From Candidatus Omnitrophota bacterium (lineage in GTDB: Bacteria; Omnitrophota; Gorgyraeia; Zapsychrales; JAHFFX01): a stretch of 39,443 nucleotides of DNA. The notes beneath the pieces are model-generated. The model had not been told where the DNA came from. It did not search any database and worked only from the letters and a program-made list of their open reading frames with translations. Below are positions 13,254-21,851 of this stretch, piece by piece. Position 1 is the first letter of the stretch, and each line of letters opens with the position of its first letter. The stretch lies in NCBI GenBank assembly GCA_023247725.1, contig JAHFFW010000023.1:1-39443 (forward strand). Direction: 5' to 3'. The translations under genes and the position numbers were made by a program.

Positions 13254-13267
13254 GATTGAAAAACAAT

Positions 13268-13272
13268 GGAGG
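13268..13272 (+). promoter_or_regulatory. Shine-Dalgarno deciding a GTG start for NAD kinase
   Basis: GGAGG sits 5 nt before GTG 13278. The ATG at 13266 overlaps this same GGAGG and has no ribosome site of its own, so the GTG four codons later is the better start. Confidence 0.5.
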
Positions 13273-13277
13273 CAAAC

Positions 13278-14156
13278 GTGTTTCAGAGGGTGCTCGTCGT
13301 CTATAAAAAGAGCGCTTATAAAATTTATTTTTTGGAACGAAAGAGTTCCTTGTTTGGCAAACAAGCCCTTTTTAAGCCCGCGGAAATCCGCCGTTTTAAA
13401 TTGGCGCACGAAACCCATTATCGAACCTTGGCGTTTATTGAGGAAATTTTGAGGCGTTATAAAATCCGTTTTAGAAAACGCCGCCGCGGCCAACGCATCG
13501 ATGCCTCTGGCTACGACCTTATCATTACGGTAGGAGGTGATGGGACTTTTTTAGAGGCGGCTCGAAGTGCACTGACTCAACCGCTCTGGGGCGTGAATTC
13601 CGATCCGGCGCATAGCGTCGGAAGATTCTGTTCGACCCGGCCGGAGCATTTTGAAAGGGATTTAGTGAATTTACTCAAAGGAAATTTTCGAACCGTGTCT
13701 CTCCATCGCTTCCGACTGGAATTGCGCGCAGGCAAAAACAAGCGGATTGTCAATGTCCTCAACGATCTTTTGTTTTGCCACCAAAATCCCGCGGCCATGA
13801 GCCGATATTACTTAACGATTAATAAAATCCGGGAAGAACAACGGGGATCCGGGTTATGGGTATCAACCGCAGCTGGTTCGTCGGGAGCGATCCATTCAGC
13901 CGGAGGCCAGGTCATTCCTCGAGCAAGCAAACTCATCCAGTATAGGCCCAGAGAAATTTTTTCCGGATTTCATGCGAAATACAGGTTAACCGGCGGAATG
14001 CTTTTTTTGCATCATCCCATCTTGATCGAGTCGATCATGCGCAGTGGCAGGATTTACATCGATGGTGCGCATCTGAGTTTTTCGTTTGGACTCGGCAATA
14101 AGGCCATATTAACGAATTCGCTTTACCCCGCGAACGTCATCCAATTCAAGGCTTGA
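13278..14156 (+). CDS. nadK: NAD kinase, NADK2-like type
   Basis: Makes NADP from NAD and ATP (or polyphosphate). The 292-residue product has GGDGTFLEAAR (86-96), the ATP-NAD kinase hallmark. The next segment, GVNSDPAHSVGRFC (105-118), differs from the usual bacterial GIN.GxLGFL and resembles the GVNTDPERSEGHLC segment of mitochondrial NADK2. LNDLLF (Asn-Asp in place of Asn-Glu) and GSGLWVSTAAGSSGAIHSAGG also follow the NADK2 pattern. GTG 13278 is preferred on its ribosome site; ATG 13266 would add four residues. It overlaps nothing and is followed at once by the CbiX gene. Confidence 0.85.
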   Translation: MFQRVLVVYKKSAYKIYFLERKSSLFGKQALFKPAEIRRFKLAHETHYRTLAFIEEILRRYKIRFRKRRRGQRIDASGYDLIITVGGDGTFLEAARSALTQPLWGVNSDPAHSVGRFCSTRPEHFERDLVNLLKGNFRTVSLHRFRLELRAGKNKRIVNVLNDLLFCHQNPAAMSRYYLTINKIREEQRGSGLWVSTAAGSSGAIHSAGGQVIPRASKLIQYRPREIFSGFHAKYRLTGGMLFLHHPILIESIMRSGRIYIDGAHLSFSFGLGNKAILTNSLYPANVIQFKA

Positions 14157-14167
14157 TTCATGATCCT

Positions 14168-14539
14168 ATGAAAGCCGCTCTGGTTGTCTCTCACGGTAGC
14201 CGCTCGAAGAAAACCCGCCAGGAAGTCCTTCGTTTGGTTAAAAAGCTGCGACGCCAAAGTTCATTTCCAATTATTGAATATGCCTTCTTGGAAATTGAGC
14301 CTCCCGATATACCAACCGGGATTGAAATGTGCGCCAGGAAGGGAGCCAAGGAAATTTTGCTGTTATTGAATTTTTTAAATTCCGGGCGTCATGTGGACAT
14401 CGATATCCCGAAGATCGCTCAAGAGGCGCGAAAGAAATATCGGGGAATTCGAATTCATATATCGCAGCCGGTGGGCCAGCACCCCAAAATCTGTGAGCTT
14501 TTCTTGGATTTGTTGGATCGTTCAAAAATTCATCTATGA
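14168..14539 (+). CDS. Small CbiX/SirB-type sirohydrochlorin chelatase
   Basis: Single-domain class II chelatase of 123 residues. VVSHGSR (His9) and NSGRHVDIDIP (His75) provide the two metal-ligand histidines of the CbiX/SirB family. It resembles the small CbiXS proteins thought to act as homodimers, and could insert Co for cobalamin or Fe for siroheme. Siroheme is attractive because a sulfate-assimilation operon follows within 1.5 kb and sulfite reductase needs siroheme, but no siroheme or cobalamin gene is adjacent. The ATG at 14168 lies 11 nt after the NAD kinase stop; the 3' end overlaps mutY by ATGA. Confidence 0.78.
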   Translation: MKAALVVSHGSRSKKTRQEVLRLVKKLRRQSSFPIIEYAFLEIEPPDIPTGIEMCARKGAKEILLLLNFLNSGRHVDIDIPKIAQEARKKYRGIRIHISQPVGQHPKICELFLDLLDRSKIHL

Positions 14540-15657: not shown

Positions 15658-16083
15658 ATGAAGATCTGTGCAAAAACGGATTATGCTTGCCGGGCCCTGT
15701 TGGAATTGTCGTTGCATTGGCCCAATATAACACCTCTGCGTTTAAACGACATTGCCCATCGGCAACAGATCCCCTTGAAATTTTTGATCCATATTTTGAT
15801 CAGTTTAAAACAACTTGGCTATATTGAGAGCCTCCGGGGGAATAAGGGCGGTTATGTCCTAGCCAAATCCCCCAAAGAAATTCTGCTTAAAGATGTCATT
15901 GAACATTTTGAGCATCACCCGTTTTATCAAAGTGCCGGAACTAAAGCAAAAAAAGGAAATGTATTTGAAAAAATTTGGACACAGGTGAACAAGGCCGTTG
16001 TGGATCAAATCCTCGCGATCAATTATGAAGAAATTTGCAATCAGGAAAAAACCCACGATACAGTTCCCATGTATAACATCTAA
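15658..16083 (+). CDS. Rrf2-family transcriptional regulator of sulfur assimilation
   Basis: Winged-helix regulator of 141 residues. The Rrf2 N-terminus is clear (KTDYACRALLELSLHW), as are the recognition region IPLKFLIHILISLKQLGYIES and the wing RGNKGGYVLAKSP. It has Cys only at about 4, 11 and 129, not the three-Cys cluster near 92-104 that binds Fe-S in IscR, so it is more like cysteine-metabolism repressors such as CymR. It is the first gene of rrf2-cysH-cysD-cysNC, 14 nt before cysH. It probably senses a sulfur metabolite or works with a partner; which one is not visible. Confidence 0.88.
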   Translation: MKICAKTDYACRALLELSLHWPNITPLRLNDIAHRQQIPLKFLIHILISLKQLGYIESLRGNKGGYVLAKSPKEILLKDVIEHFEHHPFYQSAGTKAKKGNVFEKIWTQVNKAVVDQILAINYEEICNQEKTHDTVPMYNI

Positions 16084-16097
16084 TTTTCATCCCCGGC

Positions 16098-16835
16098 ATG
16101 AATAATAACATTCAAGATCGACTCAGCGAATTTAAAGGGAAGGTGAAAGACGCCGATGCCCAGGACGTGATCCGTCTGGCCTTTGAGCAATTTGGCTCTA
16201 GGGTGAGTTTTGCTTCCAGTCTGGGAGAAGAAGATCAGGTGATTACCGACATGATCGCCAAGGCCGCGCCGGGAATTGAAATTTTTACCCTAGACACCGG
16301 ACGCTTGCATCAGGAGACCTATGATCTTTTGGCCAAAAATCAGAAACGGTATCGGTTACGTTTCAAAACTTATTTTCCCGATCCCAAAGCCGTCGAAGAC
16401 ATGGTCGCAAAAAAAGGCATCAATCTTTTTTATGAAAGTATCGAGAACCGCAAACTCTGCTGCAGAATCCGAAAGGTGGAACCTCTAAGGAGAGCCTTGG
16501 CTGACATGGATGCATGGATGACCGGTTTGCGTCGAGCCCAATCGTCCGATCGCGGCCAGACGGACGTGGTCGAATGGGATGCCGATCATCAAAAGATCAA
16601 AGTCAATCCCTTGGCCTTCTGGTCGTTAGAAGATGTTCGTCGCTACATTGCCGAGAATAAAGTTGATATCAATGAATTGCATTCCAAAGGTTTTGTCAGC
16701 ATTGGTTGCGCTCCCTGCACCCGAGCCATCAAACCCGGCGAGGATATTCGCGCGGGCCGCTGGTGGTGGGAAGATGCCCAAAAGAAGGAATGCGGTTTGC
16801 ATAATAATCCTCATCGTCCGAAGGCGGGGTCATGA
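16098..16835 (+). CDS. cysH: Adenylyl-sulfate (APS) reductase CysH
   Basis: Reduces activated sulfate to sulfite using thioredoxin or a similar donor. The 245 residues contain the PP-loop-like [24 protein letters not shown], then CC (121-122) and CAPC (204-207). These four cysteines bind [4Fe-4S] in APS reductases and are missing in PAPS reductases. The C-terminal ECGLH (Cys232) is the catalytic cysteine. The motif set therefore indicates APS as substrate. The gene overlaps cysD by ATGA and is downstream of rrf2 in one operon. Confidence 0.93.
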
Positions 16836-17725
16836 ATAAGGCCATGGATCAATTGGATTATCTGGAAGCCCAAAGTGTTTTTATCTTAAGAGAGGCCTAC
16901 CGGGAATTTAAGAGTCTCGTCATGCTCTGGTCGATCGGAAAAGACAGCACCGTCCTATTATGGTTGGCTAAGAAAGCCTTCTTCGGTCACGTGCCTTTTC
17001 CATTAGTTCACATCGATACGAGCTTCAAAATTCCGGAAATGATTCAATATCGGGATGAATTGGCCAAAAAATGGAAACTCAATATGATCGTCGGGCAAAA
17101 TAAGAAGGCCCTCGAAGAGAAGCGGACTTTTCCTGCGGGCGCCCTTGACCGCATCGCCTGCTGCAAAGCGCTTAAAACCGATGCTTTAAAAAATACGCTT
17201 TCCGGGGCTTGGCCGCGTTATCGTTTGAACCATACAACGGGAAACTATGAATTGGATTCGAATACCGAACCCTATACCGGTGTGATCGTGGGAGCCCGAG
17301 CGGATGAAGAGGGAAGCCGTTCGAAAGAACGGTATTTTTCTCCGCGGGACCGTAACAGCGATTGGGATGTCGGCGACCAGCCGCCGGAATTATGGAATCA
17401 ATTCAAAACCGACTTCGCTCCGGGGACGCATCTGCGCATTCATCCGCTTTTGGATTGGACCGAGTTGAATATTTGGGAATACATCGAGCGGGAGAATATT
17501 CCCGTCACCAGATTGTATTTTGACCAAGGCAATGGGAAACGATATCGTTCCTTGGGCTGCTATCCGTGCACCTTTCCGGTTGACTCGACGGCCAAGGATG
17601 TTCACGACATCGTGGAAGAACTGCGGGCCGGAAAATTCAAAAACATCGCCGAGCGTTCTGGCCGGGCCCAGGATAAGGAAGATGGCGGCGGGTTAGAAAC
17701 ATTGCGCCGCGAAGGGTACATGTAA
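16832..17725 (+). CDS. cysD: Sulfate adenylyltransferase subunit 2, CysD
   Basis: Catalytic subunit of ATP sulfurylase, making APS from sulfate and ATP while CysN hydrolyses GTP. In its 297 residues the PP-loop is [14 protein letters not shown] (about 33-46), followed by [25 protein letters not shown] and the C-terminal [16 protein letters not shown], all characteristic of CysD. It begins within the cysH stop (ATGA) and its TAA overlaps the cysNC ATG (TAATG), so the three genes are tightly coupled. ATG 16844 is a less likely start. Confidence 0.96.
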
Positions 17726-19554
17726 TGAAGGCCACGCTCGAGAAAAAACCGCAAACCATCAACCGCGAGCAAATGAATGTTGTCATTGTCGGCCATGTGG
17801 ATCACGGTAAAAGCACTGTCATCGGCCGTCTCTTAGTTGACACGGGATCCTTACCATTAGGGAAATTAGAAGAAGTCAAAGCCCGGTGTGAGCGTAACGC
17901 CCGTCCGTTCGAATATGCCTTCCTTTTGGATGCCCTGAAAGATGAACAGGCTCAGGGCATCACGATCGATACGGCGCGCAGTTTTTTCAAATCCCAGAAA
18001 AGAGACTACATCATCATCGATGCCCCGGGACATATTGAGTTTTTGAAGAATATGATTACCGGTGCGGCGCGGGCCGAGGCCGCTTTGCTTGTCATCGATG
18101 CCCATGAAGGGATCAAAGAGAATTCCAAACGGCATGGCTATATGTTGTCCTTTCTTGGGATTAAGAATGTCGCCGTATTGATCAACAAGATGGATCTGGT
18201 TAGTTACAGGGAAGAAATTTTCCAGCAGATTAAAAAGGATTATCTTCAATTTCTGAAGGACGTCGGCATTGAACCCTCGCAAGTTATTCCCATTTCGGCT
18301 CGAGAAGGGGACAACTTGGTGCGGTTGTCCTCGAATATGCCTTGGTATAAAGGTATTCCAGTCTTGTCAGCCCTCGATGCCTTCCGAAAAGCCGCCGCGG
18401 CCTGGGAACAACCTTTTCGTATGCCGGTGCAGGACGTTTATAAATTTACCGAAGAAAGCGATGACCGTCGCATCGTGGCCGGCCGCGTTGAGACCGGGAC
18501 CATTTCCGCGGGCGAAGAGGTCGTCTTTTTGCCTTCCGGCAAGAAATCGAGAATTGCCTCAATCGAAAGTTTTCATACGGCGCCACAAAAAGATATTTTT
18601 GCCGGGCAAAGCACCGGAGTAACACTGGAGACTCAGATTTATATTCGTCCGGGTGAAGTCTTGTGCCGTCTTAAGGAAAAAAGTCCGCACGTGAGCACTA
18701 AATTCAAGGCCAACATCTTTTGGATGGGACGACAGCCATTGGTCAAAAATAAAACCTATAAACTTAAGATCACCACGCAGCATGTCCCGGCAATCCTTTC
18801 CAAAATTGTGGGCGTCATGAATGCCTCCGAGTTGTCGTCGTTGCAAAAGCCCCATGTGGACCGCCACGAAGTGGCCGAGTGCATTCTTGAGACCATGAAA
18901 CCAGTGGCTTTTGATGCCGTTGGAGATATCGCTCAAACGGGCCGATTTGTCATTGTGGATCATTATGAGATCGCAGGCGGTGGGATTATTTTAGCGCCGG
19001 TCTTCGATGAGCAATCTTTGCTTACCCAACAGATTAAGAAACGCGATTACGAATGGGAACGCAGCGGCATCACGCCGGACAAAAGAGCGCAAAAGTACGA
19101 TCATAAATCCGCTTTAATTGTCATCACCGGACAAATCGATACCGGCAAACAACGCATCGCCAAGGCGTTGGAGGAAGAATTATTCAATTTAGGGAAATTT
19201 ACCTATTTTCTGGGTGTGTCGAACCGTTTGACGGTTGTGTCCGGACAAAGCAAAGATAAAACCCTGGAAAAATTTGAACATTTACAGCAATTAGGTGAAC
19301 TTGCCCATATTTTGACTGATGCGGGCTTGATCTTAATTACGAGCATCACTGACATCGACGATTACGAGATGTCGATGCTTAAACATTTGAACCATCCGAA
19401 CAAAACCCTCGTCGTCAATGTCGGAGAAAACCGTTTCGGCGCCGGTCAGGTCGATTTAGAGCTGGTTGAAAATGAAGATAGCCAAATCGCCGTTGCCAAG
19501 ATCGTGGATCTCTTGATTAAGTCCGTTGTTCTTGATCCTGAATATTTTATTTAA
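17725..19554 (+). CDS. cysN: CysN GTPase fused to a degenerate APS-kinase-like domain
   Basis: 609 residues. The first part (about 1-440) is CysN, the GTPase subunit of ATP sulfurylase, with G1 GHVDHGKS (23-30), [11 protein letters not shown]3 DAPGH and G4 NKMD, then two beta-barrel domains. The C-terminal about 150 residues align with CysC, but key sites are gone. The P-loop is GQIDTGKQ (469-476), with Gln where Ser/Thr binds Mg-ATP. The DGDN motif reads GVSN in YFLGVSNRL. The arginine-rich substrate segment and KxLY region are not recognisable. The fold seems kept ([30 protein letters not shown]), but APS kinase activity is unlikely. APS reductase in the same operon makes PAPS unnecessary. 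Confidence 0.9.
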
Positions 19555-19865: not shown

Positions 19866-21248
19866 ATGAAAAAGCTGCTGAAGGTTAGCCTCGGGACCAT
19901 ATTCTTGTGTCTCTTTTCTCTCCCCGCTCAGGCGGAGACTTTAGAGGAACTCAAAAGTATGATGCAACAGATGAAAACTGAGTACGAGGGAAGGATTAAT
20001 ACTCTGGAAAAGAAAATTGATGCCTTAGAAACTCAGCAGAAAAAAGATAGCGTAAGGGTTGAACAATTGAATAATCAGCAATCTGAAAAAGTTGCGGCCA
20101 TAGAAAGTAAGATTGAGGAAAAATCCCTCAACGTCGAATACGTCGGGCGATATAAGGCTCCGGAAGGTAACGGCGGCTTGCTTGTGCGCAATCCATTTGG
20201 ATTTGGCAGTGTTTCGGTTGGAGGTTATGCGGATTTGGAGTACGGAGATTTTGAAAACGATGGTGCTTACTTTTCTTCGCACCGCTGGATTATCAATGTG
20301 GGAGCGCAGCTGCACGATCGGATTGGATTCAATTCGGAATTAGAAATTGAGGAAGGAGGACCCAATTCGGCCAACGAAGACGGAGAGATCAAAGTCGAGC
20401 AGGCCTATATGGATTATAAAATTGCCAATTGGGTGAACGTGCGCGCCGGCGCCGTGTTAGTTCCTTTTGGCCGATACAATCTTTATCATGATTCTGATCT
20501 GCAGGATTTGACCGCCCGGCCGATTATGGCCAGAGATATTGTTCCGACAACCTGGACAGAGGCCGGGGGAGGGATTTTCGGTCAAATGAATCCAGACTTG
20601 GAATCATTGAAGAATTTGAGCTTAAGTTATGAGGTGTATGCGGTCAATGGTTTGGACCAGGGTTTTGACGATACGGGTTTGCAGGAGGCGCGACCAAGTC
20701 TCAAAATCGACAATAATGATGATAAGGCCATCGTAGGACGCCTCGCCATCAGCCCTACTTTAAACCAGGAACTTGGATTCAGTGGTTACTGGGGAGAATA
20801 TGATCCCTTAGGCAATGCCATCCAAGGTAGTGGAGTCGATTGGCATTCTACTGTTGGTTCATTTGAGTTGATTAGCGAGTATGCCTATTTTGATGTCGAA
20901 GAATCCGCCGCCGGAAGCTCGGATGTCGCTGATTTCTTTCAGGGTGCCTATGCGCAATTGAATTATCATTTCTGGTTCGATTGGCTCAATCAGACTTTTC
21001 TGGGCAAAGGTTTTGAAAATCCCCAATTCACTTTGGCCGGCCGATATGATTGGGCCTTGATCCATGATGATGGGGACGCTGACAATAGCGAAAATAATCG
21101 GGAAACTCGTTACACTTTAGGATTCAACTATCGTCCTATTGAAAATTTCATTTATAAATTTGAATACCAGTGGAACCAGGCGAATAATGAGACGTTGGAA
21201 CGGGGAGACAGTAACGGATTCTTGTCTTCGGTCGCAATTGGTTTCTGA
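19866..21248 (+). CDS. Outer-membrane porin with periplasmic coiled coil
   Basis: 460 residues. A Sec signal ends near residue 24 (LPAQAET). A predicted coiled coil of about 60 residues follows (EELKSMMQQMKTEYEG through VAAIESKIEEK), then a long stretch of alternating beta-strand sequence rich in Gly, Tyr and Asp. The chain ends in AIGF; a terminal Phe is the usual signal for BAM-dependent insertion. The coiled coil before a barrel resembles porins tethered to peptidoglycan or forming trimers. The repeated acidic and aromatic strand pattern fits a phosphate- or general-porin-like family, but solute specificity cannot be read. Confidence 0.85.
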   Translation: MKKLLKVSLGTIFLCLFSLPAQAETLEELKSMMQQMKTEYEGRINTLEKKIDALETQQKKDSVRVEQLNNQQSEKVAAIESKIEEKSLNVEYVGRYKAPEGNGGLLVRNPFGFGSVSVGGYADLEYGDFENDGAYFSSHRWIINVGAQLHDRIGFNSELEIEEGGPNSANEDGEIKVEQAYMDYKIANWVNVRAGAVLVPFGRYNLYHDSDLQDLTARPIMARDIVPTTWTEAGGGIFGQMNPDLESLKNLSLSYEVYAVNGLDQGFDDTGLQEARPSLKIDNNDDKAIVGRLAISPTLNQELGFSGYWGEYDPLGNAIQGSGVDWHSTVGSFELISEYAYFDVEESAAGSSDVADFFQGAYAQLNYHFWFDWLNQTFLGKGFENPQFTLAGRYDWALIHDDGDADNSENNRETRYTLGFNYRPIENFIYKFEYQWNQANNETLERGDSNGFLSSVAIGF

Positions 21249-21262
21249 TGATTGAGAGGCGC

Positions 21263-21301
21263 GGGGCCGTCGGCCCAGAATAAGGCGTCGCCGACGGCCC
21301 C
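21263..21301 (+). repeat. GC-rich palindrome between porin and FMN-binding gene
   Basis: GGGGCCGTCGGC (21263-21274) and GCCGACGGCCCC (21290-21301) form a perfect 12-bp stem with a 15-nt loop, just after the porin stop. No T-run follows, so it is an imperfect terminator at best. It may stabilise the porin mRNA end or be a dispersed palindromic element; compare the one at 37710-37746. Confidence 0.7.
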
Positions 21302-21317
21302 CGATCATCTAACGAGA

Positions 21318-21851
21318 ATGAAATCCTTTCTTCTTATTCTTCTCCTGGCCGTCTTTGTTGCCACGATCCGGGCCGAACAATTGACGACCTTCGAGGAAGC
21401 CCTGCACTCAACCTTCCCGGAGTCAGATTCAACCCAAACCCATGTGATTCATCTTTCCCCGGACCAAGTCAGTACCATTCAAGATAAAGCGAATCTCCCC
21501 AAGCCGCCTTTGTCGCAGTATCAAATCATTGTTGTGCAAAACCAAAATAAGACCATCGGTTATACTTTCGAAGACACGGTTGCAGGCAAATGGGGACCCA
21601 TTCATTATTTCCTGGGCCTGGACGCTTTCGGCAAAATCCTCGCTGTGAAGGTTCTGGCTTACCAGGAGCGAAGAGGAAGGCCGGTGGCGGAAAAAAGGTT
21701 TACCCAACAATTTGTGGGCAAGGACCAAAATAATCCGGTGCGGCTGCGCAAAGACATCCAGGGCATCACGGGCGCCACGATCTCTTCTCGAGGCCTCACC
21801 GATGGGGTGAGAAAATTGCTCTATATATTTGAAGAATACCAAAAGCTGTGA
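21318..21851 (+). CDS. Exported FMN-binding domain protein
   Basis: 177 residues from ATG 21318, with a Sec signal (MKSFLLILLLAVFVATIRA). The rest is an FMN_bind domain of the RnfG/NqrC type: GPIHYFLGLDAFGKILAVKVL, then QGITGATISSRGLTDGV (148-164). TGAT with Thr154 is the site where ApbE attaches FMN covalently. The aspartate that normally opens the ApbE site (DxxTGAT) is Gln148 here, so attachment is less certain. No rnf, nqr or apbE gene is in the window. It probably carries electrons in the periplasm, but its partner is unknown. The open frame extends to a TTG at 21252, but that would start within the palindrome region and spoil the signal peptide. Confidence 0.8.
   Translation: MKSFLLILLLAVFVATIRAEQLTTFEEALHSTFPESDSTQTHVIHLSPDQVSTIQDKANLPKPPLSQYQIIVVQNQNKTIGYTFEDTVAGKWGPIHYFLGLDAFGKILAVKVLAYQERRGRPVAEKRFTQQFVGKDQNNPVRLRKDIQGITGATISSRGLTDGVRKLLYIFEEYQKL

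Follow-up and report, generated by a model that had tools for sequence, protein, structure and literature searches.

A predicted non-catalytic APS-kinase domain kept on the CysN subunit of ATP sulfurylase in Candidatus Omnitrophota and in relatives from about 20 bacterial phyla

The analysed stretch of DNA, hereafter the window, comprises 39,443 nucleotides of contig JAHFFW010000023.1 from a Candidatus Omnitrophota bacterium. It contains an apparent sulfate operon of four genes (Table 1), the last of which encodes a fusion protein designated here as CysN'. The CysH protein scored 263.9 bits against the APS-reductase model TIGR02055 and passed its cut-off of 235.3 bits. Its iron-sulfur ligands read CCR...CAPC, so that the earlier note was right in assigning it to the APS reductases by a CC...CxxC pattern. 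The ORF of CysN' is intact, and an EF-1A/CysN-like GTPase core with its G motifs and the adjoining cysD identify the protein as a CysN. In a structural fold match, the core was 33% identical to the CysN of P. syringae (1zun_B), and in the predicted model of the full-length protein it matched both EF-1A and P. syringae CysN. The score of CysN' against TIGR02034 was just below the cut-off (334.0 versus 336.1 bits), and its score against NF004035, the model of bifunctional CysN/CysC proteins, was 422 with a cut-off of 715.

Table 1. Features of the sulfate operon in the window and of the CysN' protein
Feature	Position in the window	Strand	Basis or remark
Apparent operon rrf2-cysH-cysD-cysN	15658–19554	+	
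Rrf2-family regulator, at the start of the apparent operon	15658–16083	+	PF02082, E 7.5e-24
cysH, APS-reductase type, CC...CxxC, 245 aa	16098–16835	+	TIGR02055
cysD, catalytic subunit of ATP sulfurylase, 297 aa	16832–17725	+	PRK05253, 354 bits, cut-off 195
cysN', encoding a GTPase core followed by a pseudo-APS-kinase domain, 609 aa	17725–19554	+	ORF, Pfam, NCBIfam
CysN GTPase core, residues 1–437	17725–19035	+	G motifs including NKMD
Pseudo-APS-kinase domain, residues 438–609 (172 residues)	19036–19551	+	Without catalytic residues
Dead Walker A GQIDTGKQ, residues 469–476	19129–19152	+	S/T replaced by Q
GVSN in place of DGDN, residues 497–500	19213–19224	+	
Helix, residues 512–532	19258–19320	+	Counterpart of the conserved CysC ENIRRxxE helix
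C-terminal tail VLDPEYFI	19528–19551	+	Conserved across the window's branch

Several other genes lie near the operon. Close upstream, a CbiX-family gene (PF01903, 94 bits) was found at 14153–14539, which possibly serves siroheme metal insertion for sulfite reductase. A NAD-kinase-like protein of 296 aa, which matches only the N-terminal NAD_kinase model (33 bits), is encoded at 13266–14156. Directly downstream of the operon, a Porin O/P-family gene and then a gene for an FMN_bind-domain protein are located at 19866–21851.

The C-terminal domain of CysN' was aligned with 52 intact CysC proteins as the reference for catalytic residues. It was found that the Walker serine is replaced by Q476, DGD by GVS, and the arginine of DGDNxR by L502. 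In the intact proteins, the loop is conserved with frequencies of 1.00 (D), 0.96 (G) and 0.94 (D), and the following R is invariant (1.00). In addition, the SPYRxxR motif has gone from the window domain and is changed in all aligned members, and the whole lid (KGLY...FTG..YE.PPE) is deleted here and absent from all aligned members. In the CysC of M. tuberculosis, the phosphosulfate of APS is held by Arg483 and Arg497, and the lid closes over the nucleotide (PMC4373884). Judged by motif, Arg483 would correspond to L502, while Arg497, via the conserved DR.EN motif, would correspond to K516, which is a conservative change and no loss. The earlier note had claimed a P-loop without Ser/Thr after GK, GVSN in place of DGDN and the loss of the substrate arginines; the first two were borne out, and the third stands for one arginine but not for the second. 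The domain that it had pointed out is real, and begins a little earlier than was noted, near nt 19036.

Profile searches and modeling of the domain were in line with the alignment. The Pfam APS_kinase match (29–32 bits) covers residues 462–541 only, that is, the first half of the domain, and the score against the NCBIfam model apsK (TIGR00455) was about 42 bits (42.4), with a cut-off of 138.7. Thus, the CysN core in the window protein is not followed by an intact kinase domain. Structure prediction, for which sequences from plasmid records were left out of the inputs, led to a model of the domain with a pLDDT of 87 and a pTM of 0.84, in which the region of the former DGDN loop has low confidence. 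Its best matches in the PDB were APS kinases, with E-values down to 6.9e-9, in agreement with the previously noted CysC-like pattern. On the evidence of its residues, the domain is predicted to be non-catalytic, with an APS-kinase fold and no catalytic site.

The same CysN' protein is carried by relatives in the window's order. To follow it further, a genome collection was scanned with an alignment whose search patterns, N[AS][KR]PFEYA and YII[IL]DAPG, fell in the core. The relatives revealed by the scan numbered at least 560, and 80 of them, from 18 named phyla, were kept for analysis; together with the window's own phylum, the clade is spread over about 20 bacterial phyla. As the kept matches span almost the full query, the scan says little on domainless relatives outside the phylum. 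The full-length clade members first examined numbered 102, and 125 after more of the window's phylum had been added. The degenerate domain was present in all of them (125/125) and a Walker A motif in none (0/125); the sole exception with Walker A in the first set was a classical CysNC control. Since no full-length relative in the clade departs from the pattern, it is not a product of chance. Loss of the domain inside the clade was considered for two loci (L203 and L207) and rejected, as both sequences end at contig ends.

A whole-genome search within the window's phylum with an outgroup protein also found CysN proteins that have no such domain (L199, L200, L201 and L202). They are encoded beside cysD and an APS-reductase-like cysH and branch outside the dead-domain clade. 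APS reduction as such therefore does not need the domain.

The phylogeny of the CysN core was evaluated with two quick trees without bootstrap. In both, the domain-bearing proteins formed one clade (SH-aLRT 93 and 99), and a deep split divides the cores of this clade from CysN of the E. coli type and from classical CysNC. On the same deep side, outside the clade, are two CysN–CysC fusions with intact kinases. One of them, L165 from the window's phylum (190–2067 of its locus, minus strand), has intact kinase motifs and the core of the second CysN lineage. The other, L209 (3450–5354, plus strand), likewise with intact kinase motifs, is encoded on a plasmid of Skermanella mucosa near a sulfotransferase gene. 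In the tree with the support of 93, L165 was sister to the clade on long branches; the tree with 99 gave no resolved order among L165, L209 and the domainless groups. The distribution suggests that a fused kinase, once active, decayed a single time long ago; this is the simplest reading of these sequences and no proof. The ancestral CysN of the second lineage would then have carried an active fused APS kinase, as L165 and the Skermanella protein suggest. In the ancestor of the clade, this kinase would have lost the Mg-binding Ser/Thr, the DGDN loop, an APS arginine and the lid, and during the decay PAPS, where needed, may have been supplied by a separate CysC.

The gene neighbourhood of the dead-domain cysN differs between the branches. 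Among 37 rows of the window's branch, CysC was found in none of the fetched stretches and CysH in 26; in the 72 rows of the rest of the clade, CysC was found in 52 and CysH in 3. Flank lengths differed between the two sets, in that some loci from the window's order were fetched with about 1.5 kb and those of the other set with up to 7 kb, so the absences of CysC in the window's branch are weak alone. They are backed by a whole-genome search in the window's order: of the 35 genomes with CysN', 27 lack an intact APS kinase, and the remaining 8 have one, either adjacent or elsewhere. Elsewhere in the clade, the genes for dead-domain CysN and for a separate, intact CysC lie close together, for example in L023 (cysQ-cysD-cysN'-cysC) and in Gemmatirosa (L033). 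In Ilyobacter (L032), the order is cysC-aprA-aprB-cysD-cysN', and aprA-aprB (for the APS-reducing AprAB), cysD, the dead-domain cysN and a separate cysC were noted together in this and seven further loci of Ilyobacter, Clostridium and Halanaerobium (L035, L038, L039, L043, L045, L046 and L056). In three other loci (L152, L157 and L159), inspection by eye placed cysD-cysN' beside biotin-synthesis-like (BioF, BioA, BioD) and ketoacyl-synthase-like genes, with no cysC adjoining.

These contexts bear on the reading in the earlier note of a dead domain paired with an APS reductase, so that assimilation does not need PAPS. The dead domain is ancestral to the clade and an intact CysC adjoins dead-domain CysN outside the window's branch, so the domain is no consequence of APS reductase, which was rejected as the cause of the decay. 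With a separate CysC in 52 of those 72 members, the decay could go along with a lasting demand for PAPS. It is the window's branch that is marked by the loss of CysC and the pairing with an APS reductase.

In the window genome, which is 91% complete, no other APS-kinase homologue was found besides the CysN' domain, and there was no Sat-type ATP sulfurylase and no match to Sulfotransfer_1 or Sulfotransfer_3. Genes of the sulfite/nitrite-reductase family are present. The natural reading of this gene content, given the 91% completeness, would be a route from sulfate through APS to sulfite without PAPS. The same lack of an APS kinase was observed in 26 further genomes of the order. Across the order, an intact APS kinase accompanies Sulfotransfer_3 genes (13/17 versus 5/64 genomes, Fisher p 4e-8, uncorrected for relatedness), as expected if PAPS serves sulfation there.

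Selection on the domain was estimated from dN/dS in close pairs only, most distant pairs being saturated or distorted by base composition. In the window's branch, the values for the domain and the core were 0.064 and 0.157 in one pair (L007/L008) and 0.047 and 0.091 in another (L011/L016); in other close pairs, the domain mostly showed about 0.02–0.12. Values of 0.05–0.06 in the window's branch indicate that the domain is under purifying selection. In the long term, it has changed 1.6–2 times faster than the core, whereas in active CysNC fusions this ratio is about 1. The domain is under constraint, though a weaker one than a working kinase.

Residue conservation also divides the clade. Outside the window's branch, a Lys or Arg at the old Walker S/T position (72/72), W565 (72/72) and Y503 (69/72) are fixed, and the helix equivalent to the CysC dimer helix keeps E518, R521, R522 and E525. 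The window's sub-branch has lost the KK, the RR and a YGVDAD stretch and keeps R440, W444, R454, Y494 and G567. Further pocket residues have thus been lost in the window's branch beyond the clade-wide losses.

Because at least 125 relatives of about 20 phyla have kept the dead domain, it almost certainly has some non-catalytic job. Most likely, it serves CysDN as a module for assembly or regulation, loosely resembling the dead APS-kinase domain of fungal ATP sulfurylase; its exact role is inferred. We consider it fairly probable that the dead APS kinase has become a fixed non-catalytic module of CysDN, acting on assembly or geometry via dimerisation, or on coupling to the GTPase or to APS release. 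The domain would stay because it is useful to the CysD–CysN ATP sulfurylase itself. APS-kinase-type dimerisation would assemble CysDN or set the geometry of the complex; alternatively, the domain would couple assembly to the GTPase or to APS-release behaviour. Dimerisation is the preferred mechanism, and would proceed through the retained helix, since by fold position this is the counterpart of a dimer-forming helix of CysC; in M. tuberculosis, the CysC dimer is formed by helices alpha2 and alpha3 (PMC4373884). In the window's branch, APS would pass straight to the APS reductase, with CysC usually absent, and the domain would keep mainly its fold. The dead site, the kept fold and the purifying selection support the idea, already put forward in the earlier note, that the domain was retained by ATP sulfurylase for a purpose other than catalysis. 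Against a module of this kind speak the replacement of the RR of the putative dimer helix by QQ in the window's branch, the faster evolution of the domain than of the core, unlike in active fusions, and the CysN proteins of the same phylum that adjoin CysH and have no C-terminal domain.

The main rival, which is possible and rather unlikely, is an allosteric role of the domain in sensing a sulfonucleotide or nucleotide such as APS, PAPS, PAP or ADP. A precedent exists in fungal ATP sulfurylase, whose dead APS-kinase domain binds the inhibitor PAPS (PMC3734648, PMC3779200) and in which the Walker serine is replaced too (GKD). Outside the window's branch, the basic residue at the Walker S/T position in 72/72 proteins, together with RR, could hold a phosphate without Mg, and a sensor is more plausible there. 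However, DGDN, the arginine of DGDNxR and the lid are gone throughout the clade. For the window protein, APS or nucleotide sensing is weakened further, as the two substrate sites have gone along with the lid and the basic KK and RR; the former DGDN-loop region is also modelled with low confidence, and an intact APS kinase for making PAPS was not found in the window genome.

It is improbable that the domain docks a separate active CysC in a pseudo-kinase/kinase heterodimer that channels APS, with a remnant in the window's branch. The distribution of CysC (52/72 outside this branch, 0/37 inside) and the dimer-helix residues, which are strongest outside it, would fit, but the contrast between the branches is one phylogenetic event. 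Specific co-evolution was not detected: the partial distance correlation with the neighbouring CysC was 0.10, a value reached in 58 of 500 permutations, and that with CysD was 0.19. Moreover, purifying selection persists in the window's branch, most genomes of which lack CysC. A decaying relic without function would explain the faster evolution than in the core and the additional pocket residues lost in the window's branch; it is very improbable in view of the presence of the domain in every full-length sampled member of the clade across about 20 phyla, the low dN/dS in the window's branch and the newly fixed residues. That the domain still phosphorylates APS by some unusual chemistry is hardly credible. 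For all the retained P-loop Lys and APS-kinase fold, it is missing the Mg ligand, the catalytic Asp, the arginine of DGDNxR and the lid; a separate CysC is kept by most relatives outside the window's branch, and the window genome gave no match to Sulfotransfer_1 or Sulfotransfer_3.

A comparison with known systems indicated where the non-catalytic CysDN module preferred here is similar and where it departs. Bifunctional CysN/CysC proteins (CysNC, NodQ; M. tuberculosis, Sinorhizobium) have the same domain order and an adjoining cysD; in CysN', the kinase has lost all catalytic motifs and the lid, the domain is about 25 residues shorter and the core falls in another deep branch. The CysN of P. 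syringae and E. coli shares the GTPase core fold and motifs (1zun_B) and the CysD partner, whereas CysN' comes from a different deep lineage and an APS-kinase-like domain is absent from the E. coli protein. With the APS kinase CysC, the domain shares the fold and a family-level similarity (Pfam, 32 bits), without the catalytic residues and the lid. Fungal ATP sulfurylase (Penicillium, 1i2d/1m8p) likewise ends in a kinase-inactive domain of APS-kinase fold with the Walker Ser changed (GKD), but its catalytic part is of the unrelated Sat type, while CysN' belongs to CysDN; the fungal domain keeps LGDTVRH and PYEESR, and PAPS binding is known for it only. The two-domain APS kinase of Thiobacillus denitrificans, as cited in PMC3734648, is also a fused sulfate-activating protein with one inactive domain; going by that citation, the inactive part is the ATP sulfurylase, unlike in CysN'.

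No published description of the dead domain or of this CysN lineage was found in the open-access literature. The feature is real and conserved, and what is apparently new to description is a dead domain kept on CysDN. The regulation of CysDN by GTP is known from few enzymes, mainly proteobacterial and mycobacterial ones. A broader reading, which we put forward tentatively and with some doubt, is that the fused APS kinase was converted to a role in regulation or assembly in a second deep lineage of GTP-driven ATP sulfurylase, found in about 20 phyla. The converted domain would control APS output in organisms with either APS reductase or a separate CysC, and would parallel that of the fungal Sat-type ATP sulfurylase, an unrelated enzyme. 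CysN' may be annotated as CysN, as a "GTP-binding protein" or via an APS-kinase model, and genomes can then be credited with an APS kinase that is absent (27/35 in the window's order). The family also offers a testable case of an enzyme domain outliving its catalysis, with natural contrasts in the relatives with an active kinase, the domainless relatives, and the branches with and without CysC.
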